Shown here one piece after another: positions 34,686-42,138 of a stretch of DNA of 64,000 bases (within the stretch, counting starts at the first letter, position 1; every line of letters starts with the position of its first letter). The stretch comes from Bifidobacterium boum. Lineage in GTDB: Bacteria; Actinomycetota; Actinomycetes; Actinomycetales; Bifidobacteriaceae. The translations under genes were made by a program, and so were the position numbers. The stretch covers positions 372,001-436,000 of the forward strand of contig NZ_JGYQ01000016.1 in the NCBI RefSeq assembly GCF_000741535.1, read 5' to 3'. The notes under the pieces are model-generated. The model was not told where the DNA came from and searched no databases. It saw only the letters and a list, made by a program, of their open reading frames with translations.

Positions 34686-34725
34686 TATGCGATGATGCGG
34701 ACTAGCGGGACGCCGGCGTGTCGGG

Positions 34726-35859
34726 TCAGTAGCCGTGGCGGTTGGTGGTGTGTTGGATGGGCATCCAGCGGTTGTTGCGGTGCAGCACCGTCCAGCCGAT
34801 GAGGGTGATGGCGAGAGCGGCGGCGGTGATGATGACGCCGAGCAGGCGGGAGTCGCCACGGGCGTCCTGCGGGTAGGGGGCGGGTACGGGCATGCGCACG
34901 CGGTGGCCCGACACCAGCAGACGATGCGTGTTGACACCGTACGGGGTACACGTCATGAGCGTCACGCGATCCTCGCCGGGTCTGATGCGCAGATACCGGT
35001 CGCCTTCGGTCGGCAGGATCACGGTGATCGAGTCCACCTGGTAAGCGAGCGTCTTCCCCATAACCTTGACGTAGAAGTCGTCGCCCTTGTTGAGCTCGTC
35101 GATACGGGTGAACATCAGCGCGTTGACCATGCCACGATGTCCGGTGAGCACGGCATGGGTGTTCTTGCCGCCGACCGGCAGCGACGTACCGTACAGGTGA
35201 CCGGACCCGCGGTTCAGGGAGTTCGCGCTCGTGCCATGGTAGATGGGCAGGTTCACGGAGATTTTCGGGATGACGATCGAGCCCATGATGCCGTCGTTGG
35301 ACGCATTGAGCAGGCTCATGTACGTGGCGTCCTGCGCTGACATCGAATCGTTGTCGTCGTTGGTGGTGGAGCGGCCGGAGTCGGTGGTGAACGGATCCTG
35401 CGCCTCGCCGATGGTCGGCTGGCCTTCGGCGGCGAGCTTTCTGTTGTAAGCGCGAGCCGCGGCAAGCGCTTCCTTGGCTTGCGGGTATGGCCATCCGCTC
35501 ACGTTCTTGTCGACTTGCGCGGCGAGCTGGGCCTGATGCTGGTGGTCGATGAATTGCAACAGATACGGGTAACCGATGATGGAGACGCCGACGATGGCGC
35601 AGATGATGGCGATGGCGGTGAATATGCGCGCCTGCAGGCGTGCCGAGCGGGCCCTGCGCATGCGTTCGGCGTGGTCGGGTGCGAACAGTTCGGGCATGGT
35701 GCCCGGGTTGGGGACGAATGCCGTGGCGCCGGATGATGCCGTGCCGGATGGCGCGGCCTCGGTTTGCGTGTCGCCAGGGGTGGATGGTGTGTCTGGGCGG
35801 CTGACGTTGCTGGCGTCCTGCTGATCCGTGGTGTGCCCGCGGTGTTGGTTGTGTCGCAT
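34726..35859 (-). CDS. srtC: Class C (pilus-assembly) sortase
   Basis: Membrane transpeptidase that polymerises pilins through lysine isopeptide bonds. 377 residues: a long disordered N-terminus, a membrane helix (~76-100, FTAIAIICAIVGVSIIGYP), the sortase barrel with catalytic His in LTGHRG (~235), Cys in TLMTCTPYG (~299) and Arg in VSGHRV (~314), and a second C-terminal helix typical of class C. The N-terminal lid motif (DPF at DPFTTDSG) is also present. Ribosome-binding site GAAGGAG. It is downstream of the major pilin gene. Confidence 0.95.
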   Translation of the reverse strand: MRHNQHRGHTTDQQDASNVSRPDTPSTPGDTQTEAAPSGTASSGATAFVPNPGTMPELFAPDHAERMRRARSARLQARIFTAIAIICAIVGVSIIGYPYLLQFIDHQHQAQLAAQVDKNVSGWPYPQAKEALAAARAYNRKLAAEGQPTIGEAQDPFTTDSGRSTTNDDNDSMSAQDATYMSLLNASNDGIMGSIVIPKISVNLPIYHGTSANSLNRGSGHLYGTSLPVGGKNTHAVLTGHRGMVNALMFTRIDELNKGDDFYVKVMGKTLAYQVDSITVILPTEGDRYLRIRPGEDRVTLMTCTPYGVNTHRLLVSGHRVRMPVPAPYPQDARGDSRLLGVIITAAALAITLIGWTVLHRNNRWMPIQHTTNRHGY

Positions 35860-35928
35860 TGCCGCTCCTTCCGCTACAACCTTACCGTATGATGACGGCG
35901 AGCGACATCAGACGAACAACCCGCCACC

Positions 35929-35966
35929 CTCTACCGACGGTGAGAAGGGTGTCAGCGTCGGTAGAG
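35929..35966. repeat. Intergenic hairpin repeat, copy 1
   Basis: CTCTACCGACG (35929-35939) pairs with CGTCGGTAGAG (35956-35966); allowing one mismatch the stem extends with TGA/TCA. Same family as the repeats near 49.6 and 55.5 kb. Confidence 0.7.
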
Positions 35967-35981
35967 GCAGACGGGAGAGGA

Positions 35982-36094
35982 AATGCGTGGAGCCTTGCGG
36001 CTTCCGGATGCGGGGTTCCATATCCGGGGCTGCAGGGCTCCAAGGGGGTATGGCACGGGGGGCGCTACACGGGCGCCGGGCGCGCCGCTACCAC
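35982..36094 (-). repeat. Pilin-downstream element, copy 1
   Basis: A ~110-bp stretch after the major pilin gene that recurs after the adhesin pseudogene (38536-38630). Shared parts are GCGTGGAGCC, GGATGCGG, GGGGGTATGGCACGGGG and GCTACACGGGCGCCGGGCGCG. It folds into a long hairpin (35989-36041) with outer stem GGAGCC/GGCTCC and wobble-compensated inner pairs. Probably a terminator or mRNA-stability element between pilin and sortase. Confidence 0.6.
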
Positions 36095-36105
36095 GTCATA
36101 CGCGT

Positions 36106-38202
36106 TCAGGCCAGACGGGAGGCCTTGCGGGCATGGACCGCGAACACGCCCGCCAGCGCGACAACCGCCACGCCGATCACGGTGAAGAACGCGATGCCCG
36201 CGGCACCGGTCTTCGGCAGCTCGGTGATGGACTTCACGTTGTCGACGGTCACGCTCGAGGTGTTCTTGGTCACAGTCACCGGACCATCAGCCGCAGTCAC
36301 CAAGCCATTGCTCTTCCCGTACTTGTATTCCAGCGTCGTGAGGATGTGATCGCCGGATACGACATCTGGGCTCGCGTCGAACATGGTCTGGCTCCCGTTG
36401 CTGTCATCCTTCGTGTATGTGGGGTCGATGGTGATGTCGAACGACGGCAGTGCGTTCTGGAAGTACTCCTGCGGCGCCTTGATCTCGTGGACCGTGTACG
36501 TGCCTTCCTCCAGGCCGTTGAAGTCGATTTTGCCTTTGTCGTTGGTCAGGAAGACACCCCTCCCGTTGAGTGTGTTGAGCGTTTTCTCATCAGGCGAGGC
36601 TTTAGTGGGATAGGCGGTATCCGCGGTCGGCTCGTTGTCGACGGTGCCCCACGCGCCGTCCGACAGCGTCAAATACTTGCCGTCGGAGGACCTCTTGACC
36701 GTGAACTGAGCGTTCCGCAGTGGCGTGTTGTCCTTGCGGTACTGCTTGACGAGGCTGAACTTGAACGAGTACACGTTCACCGTCGGGCCAAGCACCTCAT
36801 GATGCCCGGTGGCGGTATGGTCGGAGAAGTCGACCTTCACACTGTTCGCGTTGCCGTTCGGGTCGATGCCCGTGGTTTCGGCGCCGGCCGTATTCGTGAC
36901 GAACGCGTCCTTGTTCAAGGTGGCGGTCAGGGTGATTACCACGGAGTCGTTCGTCTGCCATGTGGCTCCCGCTGCAGTGGTGCCGTCGCCGTTGACCAGC
37001 TTGGCCAAGTCGATTGTCATGCCGTTGACCGTCTTATCGGTGTCGCTGACCGTAGTGGGCGCCGCCGTGTAATCGGTATCTGGCGTCAATGCACCGTTCT
37101 TCAGCTCCTCGTAGACGCCCGTGACATTATTCGCCCGGTACAGCTTGACGCTGGTGACCTTCGGATCGCTGAACGGGATCTTGGTGTGGGCGTTCTTTTC
37201 GAAGGTGTCGGTGACGAGCAGCTTGCGCGCGTCCGCCGCCGTCGTATCGGTGTTCTTCGTGTAGCCGGCGTAATTCGGGATAGCGGTCTGCAGCTGGAAG
37301 GTCACGATATCGCCAATCGAATATGAAGGGTTCAGGTTCGGTGTGGTACCGTCTTTCTCCACCACCTGCTTGAGCACGTCGCCAAACGTGTTCTTGACGT
37401 CGATGATGCCGCTGACATTGGTGTGATTGCCGTCGGAGAGCCACAGGCCCGGGTATACGGTGTTCGGCGCCTTGTACAGGGTTGAGGAGACGAGCATCGG
37501 CACGGAGCGTGTGGACGTCTCCATGTTGTCCGTGGTGTCCTTCATGGTGTCCCACACGAGGTACAGGCCCGTCTTCGGGACCGCGGTGCTGTTATCGTCT
37601 TTCAGCGTGCCGGTGTCCATCAACGTGTCTTGCCCGACCGGCGTAATCTTCGTGGACTTGAGTTTGCCCAGGTCCGCGGAGCTCATCGCGTCAAGCGCCG
37701 AGCCGAGCGCGTCCGCGAACTTGCGCTCGGTCGCCACGCCCTTGCCCGGGTTCGTGGTGTCGGTGTAGCCGTATGGCGCGTCCGGGGATTGGGTGGCCAC
37801 GGCTTTGAGCGCGGAGTAGATCGCGTCGGTGTCGGTCAGGGTCGAGCTGTCCACACCGGCGGCCGTGAGCGCCGTCTTGAGCGTGGCATCGGGAAGGTCG
37901 CCCTGCGTGTATTTGAGTGTCTCGATATCGAGATAGCTGGTATTCGCTGCCGCGGGTTTCACGTTGTCCATGTCGTACGCCGCGACCAAGTACGCCTTGT
38001 ACCGGTCGGCGTGGCTCTCGTAGAAATCATCGCGTACGGCGATCCTGGCTGTGGTATCGGTGGTCGTTGACTTGAGGGGATTGTCGTCGGAGCTTCCTCC
38101 GCCGATGGCCGCCATCGCCGTACCCGCACCCAATGCGAATCCTCCTACGGTCATGGCCGCAGCGGCCACACCCGCGAGGAACTTCTTCCATGAAGCCTTC
38201 AT
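36106..38202 (-). CDS. fimA: Major pilin subunit (LPKTG, isopeptide/Cna-B type)
   Basis: ~698-residue secreted backbone pilin. Signal peptide 1-~30 (KKFLAGVAAAAMTVGG ... TAMA), N-terminal and CnaB-like domains, an E-box VHEIKAPQEY (~571), sorting motif LPKTG (~659), a membrane helix and a basic tail. The expected pilin-lysine motif (VYPK) is at ~247 as TVYPG, without the lysine, so the polymerisation lysine must lie elsewhere or differ. The ATG at 38202 has AAGGAG 7 nt upstream. The srtC downstream should polymerise it. A promoter with a C9 spacer lies ~140 bp upstream. Confidence 0.92.
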   Translation of the reverse strand: MKASWKKFLAGVAAAAMTVGGFALGAGTAMAAIGGGSSDDNPLKSTTTDTTARIAVRDDFYESHADRYKAYLVAAYDMDNVKPAAANTSYLDIETLKYTQGDLPDATLKTALTAAGVDSSTLTDTDAIYSALKAVATQSPDAPYGYTDTTNPGKGVATERKFADALGSALDAMSSADLGKLKSTKITPVGQDTLMDTGTLKDDNSTAVPKTGLYLVWDTMKDTTDNMETSTRSVPMLVSSTLYKAPNTVYPGLWLSDGNHTNVSGIIDVKNTFGDVLKQVVEKDGTTPNLNPSYSIGDIVTFQLQTAIPNYAGYTKNTDTTAADARKLLVTDTFEKNAHTKIPFSDPKVTSVKLYRANNVTGVYEELKNGALTPDTDYTAAPTTVSDTDKTVNGMTIDLAKLVNGDGTTAAGATWQTNDSVVITLTATLNKDAFVTNTAGAETTGIDPNGNANSVKVDFSDHTATGHHEVLGPTVNVYSFKFSLVKQYRKDNTPLRNAQFTVKRSSDGKYLTLSDGAWGTVDNEPTADTAYPTKASPDEKTLNTLNGRGVFLTNDKGKIDFNGLEEGTYTVHEIKAPQEYFQNALPSFDITIDPTYTKDDSNGSQTMFDASPDVVSGDHILTTLEYKYGKSNGLVTAADGPVTVTKNTSSVTVDNVKSITELPKTGAAGIAFFTVIGVAVVALAGVFAVHARKASRLA

Positions 38203-38340
38203 GATAGCTCCTTCGTTATTCATCTCTTCCGCACAGCCCAACAAACACCGTTGTGCCCGTCCGAACGTTCATCGTCGCGCAATCGGACAATATTGCACCT
38301 GCCCCGCTGCCATCATCGGCATCGCCGTCAGGTATTTCCC

Positions 38341-38369
38341 ATCATATGGGCATAGGGGGGGGGTATGAA
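38341..38369 (-). promoter_or_regulatory. fimA promoter with C9 tract in the spacer (candidate phase switch)
   Basis: Reading the minus strand: -35-like TTCATA (38364-38369), a 17-bp spacer made of nine C (38355-38363) plus TATGCCCA, and -10 TATGAT (38341-38346, 5 of 6 to TATAAT). The spacer is the optimal length only at C9. Slippage would give 16 or 18 bp. Confidence 0.6.
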
Positions 38370-38535
38370 GCATCAACACGCCGGGCGTTGTCTAATAAAG
38401 CGACGCTGTTGTCCGCCTATGGAGGAAAGCACGTCTATGCCGCCGGTTCGGGAAGATATTCGACCAACTACATTCAGGCCCGTCAGCGTAGCCGGTTCAA
38501 ACAAGAGGGTTGCGCAATATGGTTCCGGTCTGGAG

Positions 38536-38630
38536 AATGCGTGGAGCCCTGCGGCCGGGGATGCGGAGGGTTCCGTATCCCGGGGCCGCAGGGGGTATGG
38601 CACGGGGGCGCTACACGGGCGCCGGGCGCG
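38536..38630 (-). repeat. Pilin-downstream element, copy 2
   Basis: Second copy of the element at 35982-36094, here directly fused to the end of the adhesin pseudogene. Its hairpin CCCTGCGGCC (38547-38556)/GGCCGCAGGG (38584-38593) is fully paired, where copy 1 uses wobble pairs, so the stem is conserved while the bases differ. It lacks the outer GGCTCC arm. Confidence 0.6.
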
Positions 38631-41600
38631 GACCGCGAACAGGGCGACCAGCGCGACGATGACGCTGATGACGCCATCCGTGCCATCCGCATCCTGGTAT
38701 GTGGTCGCGTTACCGACGCAGCGCGAGGCATCGATCTGCGCGTTGTTGTCCGCGAGGCAGAACACGTCACCCGCCGCATCGGCGACCTGCCATTGTGAGC
38801 CGGCAAGCTTGTCTGAATGGCTGGGATCGTTCGCGTTGCTGCCGTCGACCTTGTACCACGTCACCACGGTCGGGGTGTCGGGTACCTGAAGCACACCGTC
38901 GGCAACAAGACTTGCGACACCATCCGCCCAAGTCACCTTGCCGTCTTTGACCGTAAAGCCGTACGACATGGTGTTGAGCGTATACCCTTTAGGCGCGGTC
39001 GCCTCTTTCAGCGTGTACGTGCCGTCGTCCAGATCCTTCACGGTGAACTTGCCGACGCCGCTGTCCGTGTCTTCCAACGTGCCGGTGTCAGCGGCCAGGC
39101 GCGGGGACGGCTTGGCACTGTCCATCGTGGTTCTCACGACGGCATCCGAGGCATGCGACGTGCCGGTGCCGGTTGACAAGGTTTTGCCTGTCGCATTGAT
39201 AACGGTCCCCGAGGTCTTCGCCGCGGCCGTAGTGGTCTGGGAATCGACCAGGTCCGAAGTCACTTCGGTCGGGCAGCTGGTCCCGTCCGGGGCGCCATCC
39301 GTCGCCTTGCCGACGCCCACGGTAATGGCGGAGCCGCCGGTGAACGAGAAGTTCGCGTTGCCGGTGGCCTTGTACCAGTTCGCCGTGCTGTCATTCGTAT
39401 TGTTGTTCGAGAACAGGAATTGCTTGCCGGAAGTCGCCTTGTCGATGATGGCGTACACGTAATCGCCGCTGCAGGAGGCCTGCTTCATCTTGACATAGTT
39501 GCCGACAGCCAGCCACGTGCCGTCATTCTTCTGGTACTTGAGGTAGACGTCACCCGTCCAGCCGGACTCCGTGTGATGGAAGTAGACCACCATCTTGGAG
39601 CTGTCGACGTCGATGACGGTGACATGGAGCCGGACCGACTTGTTGCCCGCGGTGGCGACCACCGTGGTGCTTCCGGTTTTCTTGGCTGTCACCAGGCCAG
39701 AGCCGCTCACCGAGACGATGTCGGGATCCAACGCGGACCAGCTGGTTGCCACGGTGTTCGGGTCGACAGTCGCTTGGAACAGTTGCGTCTTGTTGACGAA
39801 CATTTTGACGTCCGCCTCGGCGCCCACCGTCTTGTCAGCGTCGCCTGAGGCTTTGGCCACGGTGGAACCGTCGCTTGTCACCGTCAACGAATTGACATTG
39901 ACGGCGTTGACCGTGGTGTCGCCCTGGGTCAGGGTAATGCCGGTGGCGGCAGTGGTGTTGTCGTTCACTGTCCAACTGGTGGCTGTACTGGCATCGGTTT
40001 TCGTGAGGGTCCAGCTTGATCCGGCGAGTCCGGTCTTCGAATCGTCACCGCTGGCGTATTTCGTCCAGCTGACGCTGCCGCCCTTCTTCTTGTCGCCGAT
40101 CGCGTAAGCGGTACGGCCGTCAGCGGCTGTGAAGGAGTGCATCATCTGGTCATCGGAAGTGGTGACTTGTTTACCGTCTTGTCGTACACCAACGACGTCA
40201 GGAAATTAACGTTGGCATCGCCTTTCTGCAGGGTCTGAACGGTATAGATGTTGGTGTTGGGCCGGTACTTCCGGCGCGTTCGTCTCTCTGATGAAATAGT
40301 TCGCGTTCGGCTTGAGCCCTTTGACAACGACCTTGCCTTCCTCGGTGGACCAATCGTTACTGCCGTTGTCAGTCACCGAGATGATGGCGCTGGTGCCTCT
40401 CTTCGCGTCCTCGAGTGAGCCGTATACACTCCACGAGGCTCCCGAGAGCGTTTCGTTAGTCGAGTTGTCGACTTTGCCCCAGCCTATGGCGGAGCTGTCC
40501 TGCGTGTAGTACGCGTTCCACGGCAGGTTATGGCGTTCCTGGTCCATATCGATGACGGACGCGGAGTTGCCGCCTTCGAAATTGGTGAACAGGCTGCCGT
40601 CGGTGTATTTCACCGGCGTGGGGTTATCTACCTCGAAGTCCCCGCCCACATACACGCGGCCGTTGGTGGACACATGCGACTGGAAGCCGCCGTTGGGCAC
40701 GTAAATACTGCCGATCCACGCCGCCGCAGGGTCGTCGCTCGTGGTCATCTGATTGGTGGTCTTGATGACACCGTCCTTTGATTTCACCGTCTGGGTGCCG
40801 GAGCCTTGGCCGCCGCGGATGGTCAGCTGCGTAGTGTACGGGAAGTTCCAGAGCACCTGCTGGGCACGCTTGGCATATATGCTAGGCTCGTTATCGTTGC
40901 CCGACTTGGTGTAGGAGTAGTACCCGCCGATTTCCGTCACGTCGGAATCAGTGATATTGGAGCTCGCGTCGCCACCCCACCATATGCGCCAGCCGTTGTG
41001 GAAGTCCACGGTGTTCGTGCTTGTTGGGGTGCCGTCATCGTTGACCACGTTCACCACCACGGATGCGGTGTCGGGGATGTTGCGGAACCAGAAATCGACA
41101 CCGGAGTATGTGCCGTTCGACAGATCCGAGGCCTTGACGTTGAAGATCTGCAGGGACGATTCGCCATCGCCGGTCAGGGTGATGAGCTTCTCGTTCACAC
41201 CGCTGGTGAATTTGAACTTGTAGCTGTCAACGGTCTGGGTGTTGTAGACCTCATGCTTGAAGTAATCATACTTGACCGTGTCAGGCCCTCCTCGTCCAGG
41301 ACCGGCGCACTGCCCGTGGTGTAGGTGCCATTGGCCTTGAAGCCGGCGAGTTCTAATGATTGTGTCAGGGTATCGGTGCCGAAGTTAGCGTATTGGACAC
41401 CGTTGATCTTGAAGGAGGTGGAAGGGTTCTGGCCCTCGCCATCGAGCGTGTCCCACCTGTTTTCAAAATCGAGTACCTTTTGACACCAGTGCCAAAGAGG
41501 TGTATTTGGGGTCCTTAGATTTGCCCCATTCACGGGAAACTGATGAATTAGACGGTACCGTCGCCTTGTAATGGAATTCTCGACTATCGCTAGGGTAACC

Positions 41601-41941
41601 AACCCAGCCACCGCCGTAGTTCTTGTCCTGCCCGGTCCCCAGGCCGCAACATCAATGCCTTTGTCGGTCATCAACTGGAAAATGCCCGATTTGTCCAAAC
41701 CGCGCACAGCCAGCACGCTGGTAGGGTTTCCTTCACTATCCGTTTCGGCAGGGCGGAACTGGGAGCCGAAGCCTACCACGCCGAAGCGGAAGCCCTGGCC
41801 GCCCCGCCACCACTGTGCTTCGGGGTCCTCGCCTTCCAAGGCTTCACCATGTGTCACCCTCCTCATTCGCCTGCCGGATACCCGCTCCACCTCCTTGAGT
41901 GAAGCCCCGCCAAATGATTTTCGTCGAACGCTTGGTCTCAA
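38631..41941 (-). pseudogene. Pilus tip adhesin / ancillary pilin (degraded)
   Basis: The reading frame of a large secreted adhesin is broken by about five indels, near 41636-41640, 41478-41481, 41284-41288, 40268-40271 and 40174. When frames are joined the protein reads continuously, for example GKDNYGGGWVGYPSDSR-like and DTVKYDYFKHEVYN segments. The 5' end with signal peptide is missing (start lost near 41900), and at the 3' end the LPxTG motif is gone, with QDADGTDG joined straight to a membrane helix (GVISVIVALVALFAVRARR). Recognisable modules: collagen-binding/DUF-like N-terminal region, a carbohydrate-binding-like segment (YFHHTESGWTGDVYLKY), a Big_2-like domain (LVTAKKTGSTTVVATAGN) and a CnaB E-box (LKEATAPKGY). 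It precedes fimA, the normal place for a tip adhesin. Some lesions could be sequencing errors, but not the loss of both ends. Confidence 0.8.
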
Positions 41942-42138
41942 TCATCTGGCAGCCTTACCACACCGTTACAGCGTTCAGAAAAAACGACACGCCGGCACCA
42001 CCCAGATTCCCGTCGTATCTCCCACAGCGAATCCTCCCCACGGTACACCATCCCCGCGGCATAGCGAGCGGGGCCGCCGCAACGCGACAGCCCCGCAACA
42101 CCCCGGCAGACACCCGCCGGCAATTCACCGCTCTACGG

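Follow-up and report, generated by a model that had tools for sequence, protein, structure and literature searches.

A C9 tract inside a promoter-like element upstream of the pilin gene fimA of Bifidobacterium boum: a candidate slippage tract

The 64,000 nucleotides (nt) of Bifidobacterium boum DNA analysed here (contig NZ_JGYQ01000016.1, positions 372,001 to 436,000; hereafter the window) contain a sortase-dependent pilus cluster in which a run of nine C residues lies between two promoter-like hexamers upstream of the major-pilin-like gene fimA. We describe this element, the genes around it and comparable tracts in the genus, and weigh the proposal that slippage in the C9 tract tunes transcription of fimA. 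The features, in window coordinates with lengths in base pairs (bp) or amino acids (aa), are as follows.

38364-38369, minus strand: -35-like hexamer TTCATA, 4 of 6 matches to TTGACA
38355-38363, minus strand: C9 homopolymer, wholly within the 17-bp spacer
38347-38354, minus strand: rest of the spacer, TATGCCCA
38341-38346, minus strand: -10-like hexamer TATGAT, 5 of 6 matches to TATAAT
38208-38213, minus strand: Shine-Dalgarno-like site AAGGAG of fimA, 5 nt ahead of the ATG (direct reading)
36106-38202, minus strand: fimA, intact major-pilin-like protein, 698 aa, with SpaA domain and LPKTG anchor
34726-35859, minus strand: pilus-cluster sortase, 377 aa, PF04203, protein 96% identical to the sortase of genome G101
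38600-41941, minus strand: fimB remnant, large and minor-pilin-like, in several frames, lacking the N-terminal signal region and an LPXTG end
38532-38660, minus strand: 3' tail of fimA type with a strong hairpin, joined to the fimB remnant and duplicating the fimA-end stretch
35979-36162, minus strand: counterpart at fimA itself, with the 3' end of the gene and the hairpin that follows it, ahead of the sortase gene

Read on the minus strand from 38369 to 38341, the element is TTCATA-CCCCCCCCC-TATGCCCA-TATGAT, in which CCCCCCCCC is the C part. The first-pass annotation of the window had placed the two hexamers exactly 17 bp apart with nine C in the spacer, and had given TATGAT as five of six to the -10 consensus; direct reading and an independent consensus scan, which called the same site with 9 of 12 matches, agree with that description. 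Its statement that nothing else in the window has such a run also held, as the C9 tract was the only C/G run of at least 7 nt and there were no A/T runs of at least 8 nt. The end of the -10-like hexamer is approximately 139 bp from the fimA ATG (38202). There were three 9/12 sites in 6 kilobases (kb), counting both strands and including the fimA site, compared to a shuffle mean of 1.4. As judged by consensus matching only, the element has the arrangement of the opc promoter type, with a homopolymer wholly between hexamers whose 17-bp spacing falls in the 16-18-bp range. No mapped promoter consensus for Bifidobacterium was found in a literature search, and the exact length of the C9 tract may be one off in this draft assembly. 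A promoter on the plus strand was considered and rejected: by eye, there was no good -35-like partner and no convincing gene ahead, and the promoter scan found none there.

The cluster combines an LPXTG/SpaA pilin with an adjacent pilus sortase (PF17802, PF00746 and PF04203). Both fimA and the sortase gene are intact, and the N-terminus of FimA is signal-peptide-like, judged by eye. Their fimB partner is broken: the stretch encoding the signal region and an internal stretch are absent, the frames are split, and the 3' end has been replaced by the fimA-type tail and hairpin. This hairpin (dG of -52 and z of -3.9 for the folded stretch) lies between the fimB remnant and the C9 tract. It may hinder read-through from fimB, and fimA therefore probably needs its own promoter there. 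The presence of the 3' tail and hairpin in two copies suggests that one copy comes from a lost second fimA-type gene. From the sequence we infer an ancestor with two tandem fimA-type genes, the first of which was reduced to its tail, in which case 38206-38531 would represent the region ahead of the second one. The same genome has a second pilus cluster, with two LPXTG proteins (1369 and 536 aa). Its genes contain no run of at least 7 nt, and tracts are located approximately 1.5 kb ahead of the first gene and past the end of the cluster; weak matches below the cut-off in the search of this cluster were ignored, as controls gave such signals too.

We found that the C9 run alone is unremarkable, because dinucleotide shuffles of the window expect as many C8 matches. 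There were two overlapping C8 matches, compared to a mean expectation of 2.44, and 64 of 100 shuffles had at least two. Such runs are less frequent in the actual genome (2.17 megabases, Mb), over the whole of which 29 overlapping C8 matches made up 10 G/C tracts of 8-11 nt, including the fimA tract. Nine of these ten are C on the plus strand of the contig, the fimA tract alone being opposite, a bias that contig orientation may explain. The layout around the tract, given the tract, is unusual. We inserted a C9 into the window 200,000 times, at intergenic-like positions drawn at random and with one strand considered each time; it fell within a 9/12 promoter with a spacing of 16-18 bp in 0.145% of draws, or in 0.12% over all window sites. 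None of the other nine genomic tracts had such a promoter around it on either strand, and approximately 0.03 tract-in-promoter layouts are expected per genome (10 tracts, two strands). The 329 bp upstream of fimA held two candidates with at least 8 of 12 matches (spacers of 15-19 bp), and the C9 site was the better one.

The closest relatives provide limited material for comparison of the element itself. By ribosomal protein L10, the nearest named record is B. thermophilum DSM 20210 (99% protein identity), and the permease gene neighbouring the cluster has 91% DNA identity to the corresponding locus of that strain (L038). At L038, which has the same neighbours as window positions 34707-42136, the cluster is gone between the permease gene and a sortase remnant. 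The closest relative having the cluster is G101, in which all three genes are present in the order fimB (a stop-to-stop frame of 1514 aa), fimA, sortase. In addition to the sortase, the fimB DNA is similar between the window and G101 (approximately 87-94% identity where alignable), and FimA has 53% protein identity. We searched 112 Bifidobacterium genomes with 461 bases around the tract, scoring at most five candidates per genome. Eight genomes other than that of B. boum matched with an expect value of 0.01 or better, seven of them over just 20-30 bases; the sole strong match, in G101, was limited to the tail and hairpin part. There was no match to the 461-bp stretch in a plasmid search, and a scan of viral contigs with a 17-base flank gave one match, in an unrelated contig and without a C run. 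A contig scan with FimA matched 24 stretches, with no relative among them.

Sortase loci in Bifidobacterium are enriched in tracts of G or C. Of the 112 genomes, 110 had matches in a sortase search, and we took the best 80 of the listed matches after that of B. boum, each with up to 12 kb upstream. Several of these stretches end at contig ends, two (L187 and L201) are partial with the rest covered by the stretch of a neighbouring sortase, one (L220) is a B. thermophilum-like remnant, and some of the 80 sortases may be non-pilus enzymes. There were 34 C/G runs of at least 8 nt in 31 of the 80 stretches, 28 of them G and six C on the sortase strand, counting one C tract in L187 without an assignable orientation. 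The density of overlapping G9/C9 matches was 73.7/Mb, compared to 14.3/Mb pooled and a median of 8.9/Mb over the 112 genomes, an enrichment of 5-8 times (genome sizes rounded). At least eight G runs of at least 8 nt lie within stop-to-stop frames that end in an LPXTG-like motif (L155, L157, L163, L175, L182, L191, L200 and L219), and most of these, by eye, are near an ATG, which matches the published intragenic mechanism. The fimA tract is exceptional in both orientation and place, because tracts at sortase loci are mostly G on the coding strand and at least eight of the 34 are intragenic. In four loci (L222, L223, L224 and L226, from G006, G018, G040 and G019) a G11-G13 tract is located approximately 750 bp before the sortase gene, with flanks alike across species in L223, L224 and L226 (TTTTAT ahead of the tract). 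The 5' ends of the pilin genes of L191 (G030) and L195 (G041) are near-identical, both with G11. A single base immediately beyond the tract distinguishes them, so that a different frame is open downstream of the tract; these two loci are where the intragenic switch known from the literature would operate.

Tracts in promoter-like positions were also found elsewhere in the genus. A loose pattern (TTGA...G8...TANNNT) had 16 matches against 11 in controls, and is weak on its own because the controls are nearly as frequent. A tight pattern (TTGACN{0,9}G7TA), designed only after the first loose-pattern matches were known, was found in 7 of 112 genomes and in 0 of 112 controls. All seven sites are 40-73 bp ahead of a frame with a signal-like N-terminus (by eye). 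There are fewer than seven independent cases, because four of the sites are orthologues from one family (MKKMGKVVAVLAGLSMMLAG...). A search with this family found it in 10 of the 112 genomes, and a Pfam search of its protein matched no family. In seven of the ten, a G tract ends 55-58 bp before the ATG, with lengths of 10 (G020), 8 (G031), 10 (G070), 8 (G023), 10 (G067), 11 (G097) and 10 (G071). The flanks (TTTTGRCYWC-Gn-TA) are conserved in five of these and different in G097 and G071. Two further members, in G014 and G066, had no run of at least 6 nt in the 300 bp examined; in G003 the match starts within the protein, and a G10 run lying farther upstream was left unassigned. The five conserved-flank elements, L239 (G020), L240 (G023), L246 (G067), L247 (G070) and L261 (G031), have G8 or G10 between TTTTGAC-like and TATTGT-like sequences, approximately 57 bp before the start codon. 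Their sequences make them candidate promoter-type slippage tracts that differ in length between species. The spacing of 10-12 in the five is below the sigma-70 optimum, and they may therefore represent OFF states or another promoter type.

Other loci also have TTGAC-G10..13-TA before genes for secreted or pilin-like proteins (L249, G101:C3:106962; L245, G053:C1:142691; and L218/L241, G030:C1:250890). In L218/L241, TTGACA and TACTGT are 15 apart with G10 in the spacer, 40 bp before the start of an LPXTG-type frame; among the tracts of the 80 sortase stretches, this one (L218) has a promoter-like position. The protein downstream of L245 carries beta-helix repeats. The corresponding pattern in C orientation had two matches genus-wide and none in controls, neither of them at a pilin gene as far as seen: one is ahead of a frame without a signal-like start, and the other is inside a long reading frame.

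We consider it plausible, and the most likely of the readings compared here, that slippage of the C9 tract adjusts the activity of a fimA promoter, in the manner of poly-C at opc. A sigma-70-type promoter close to fimA would then have the tract in its spacer, and the major pilin would be transcribed from it, apart from the broken fimB. A slip of one or two bases would move the spacer off 17 bp and lower transcription, making the pilin phase-variable in a graded or ON/OFF manner, as with poly-C at the meningococcal opc promoter. Use of the promoter, slippage of the tract and the effect of spacing on expression are inferences, for which several observations speak. The exact layout is unusual given the tract, and fimA and the sortase gene are intact although fimB is dead. 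The enrichment of tracts at sortase loci and the promoter-positioned tracts before genes for secreted proteins point in the same direction, and the poly-C effect at opc and the slippage measured at B. breve pilin tracts argue for it by analogy.

Several observations weigh against this reading. The -35 match is weak, the rarity test was made after the site had been chosen by eye, and 15% of 5000 Markov sequences modelling the 329 bp ahead of fimA contained a 9/12 site somewhere. There is no tract upstream of fimA in G101, where the short upstream region has a chance-looking 9/12 site abutting the Shine-Dalgarno region; at up to five candidates per genome, the search of the other 111 genomes gave nothing but short weak matches to 38206-38531. 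In the best 80 sortase stretches, 72 of 76 G9/C9 matches are G on the sortase strand, the opposite of the fimA tract. The hairpin downstream of fimB has no U run and is therefore no canonical terminator. The cluster is decaying, as seen in the broken fimB and in the sortase remnant that is all that persists at the B. thermophilum locus. Nine bases is also at the short end of published pilus tracts (8-13, mostly 9-13; PMC9187656, Table 1). The proposal of the first-pass annotation, a phase-variable pilus switch, is supported in part: the layout, the spacing, the place before an intact LPXTG/SpaA pilin gene beside a sortase gene and the rarity of the layout speak for it, as do the genus-level enrichment and the promoter-like G tracts, whereas the lack of conservation of the element in the genomes searched and the unusual tract orientation do not.

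Nearly as likely is coincidence: the C run would be neutral, part of a rapidly changing intergenic stretch that recombination left behind, and fimA would be transcribed from another promoter or from none. Several of the observations just listed favour this explanation, namely the frequency of 9/12 sites in Markov sequences and the presence of one in G101, the absence of 38206-38531 from the other genomes searched, and the degradation of the cluster. The C run is within the expectation from composition, and the other nine genomic tracts lack a promoter layout, so that tracts can occur without a role. Coincidence accounts less well for a 9/12 site whose 16-18-bp spacer holds the entire tract, a joint event with a frequency of 0.15% per site and strand, with the caveat that the choice of site was post hoc.

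It is also conceivable, and in our view rather unlikely, that the fimA promoter is real and the tract effectively fixed, C9 being too short for a useful slip rate, so that there is no phase variation. The promoter layout and hairpin would fit this, as would the published pilus tract lengths and the behaviour of the opc tract, which did not change in 89 colonies of a parental meningococcal strain, unlike its mutS-negative variant (PMC3447861). Against it, tracts of 8 and 9 do change, as in lgtA, where a shift from 8 to 9 was described, apparently in a mutS-negative background (PMC3447861), and orthologous bifidobacterial tracts of 8 and 10 exist. A translational switch, in which slippage joins an upstream frame with a signal peptide to fimA, would follow the mechanism already described for bifidobacterial pili (PMC9187656) and would suit at least eight of the 34 tracts in the best 80 stretches; at fimA it is extremely improbable, since the frameshift is excluded by a fimA-frame stop between tract and ATG (unless the assembly is wrong there) and by the start, Shine-Dalgarno-like site and signal-like N-terminus of fimA itself, all located after a tract that lies outside the gene and is C on the coding strand.

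To our knowledge, phase variation of bifidobacterial pili has been known from one mechanism, namely frameshifting of the first pilin gene by G tracts (PMC9187656). It is possible, and we suggest tentatively, that a second class of slippage tract, acting on transcription, exists in bifidobacteria, with G/C homopolymers in the promoter spacers of surface-protein genes. It would comprise TTGAC-G8..13-TA before genes for secreted proteins in several species and, in this strain, a C version by which the former second major-pilin gene is switched on its own, whatever the state of the dead first gene. If so, the major pilin could be controlled by itself and in a graded way through a tract in a promoter spacer, and slippage control would extend to surface proteins outside pili. 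Amplicons give a direct readout of tract length, so that selection during colonisation could be measured cheaply. The orthologous upstream tracts in seven genomes would be a better test bed than fimA, because length differences are already visible there and the flanks are conserved in five.

The slippage reported in bifidobacteria concerns other loci, as the first-pass annotation had said, with G tracts at the first pilin gene (PMC9187656). That survey extended to 500 bp ahead of the first gene, and some of the tracts it lists could be upstream ones. In titles and abstracts, and in part of the text of PMC9187656, we found no report of promoter-spacer homopolymers in bifidobacteria; passages of a paper on B. 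thermacidophilum genomes contained remarks on type IV pilin only. The nearest comparison is with bbr_0113 and bbr_1889 of B. breve UCC2003, which belong to sortase-dependent pili and have an intragenic G-tract switch whose slippage was measured (PMC9187656). They share with fimA the genus, a cluster of pilins and sortase, and a G/C homopolymer at a pilin gene. The fimA tract differs in being C9, in lying upstream of the second gene and in being unable to shift the fimA frame. A work by van Ham from 1993 is said to describe dinucleotide repeats between two divergent fimbrial genes of Haemophilus influenzae. In the H. influenzae fimbrial genes, insertions and deletions in the promoter region set transcription (PMC9187656), which would be the likeness to fimA; the difference is that dinucleotide repeats serve two divergent genes there, compared to a homopolymer and one gene here.

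At opc of N. meningitidis, poly-C of 11 is associated with low and of 12 with high expression (PMC3447861, citing Sarkari 1994). Both opc and fimA have poly-C in the promoter (putative for fimA) of a surface adhesin gene. The organisms and genes are unrelated, the opc tract has 11-12 C compared to nine at fimA, and variation and expression were demonstrated for opc and are predicted for fimA. The TTGAC-G8..G13-TA elements of the genus share with fimA a homopolymer between -35-like and -10-like sequences ahead of a gene for a surface or secreted protein, 40-73 bp before it in their case. They have coding-strand G abutting TA, a spacing of 10-15 and a short leader, whereas fimA has C, a spacing of 17 and a leader of approximately 130 nt.
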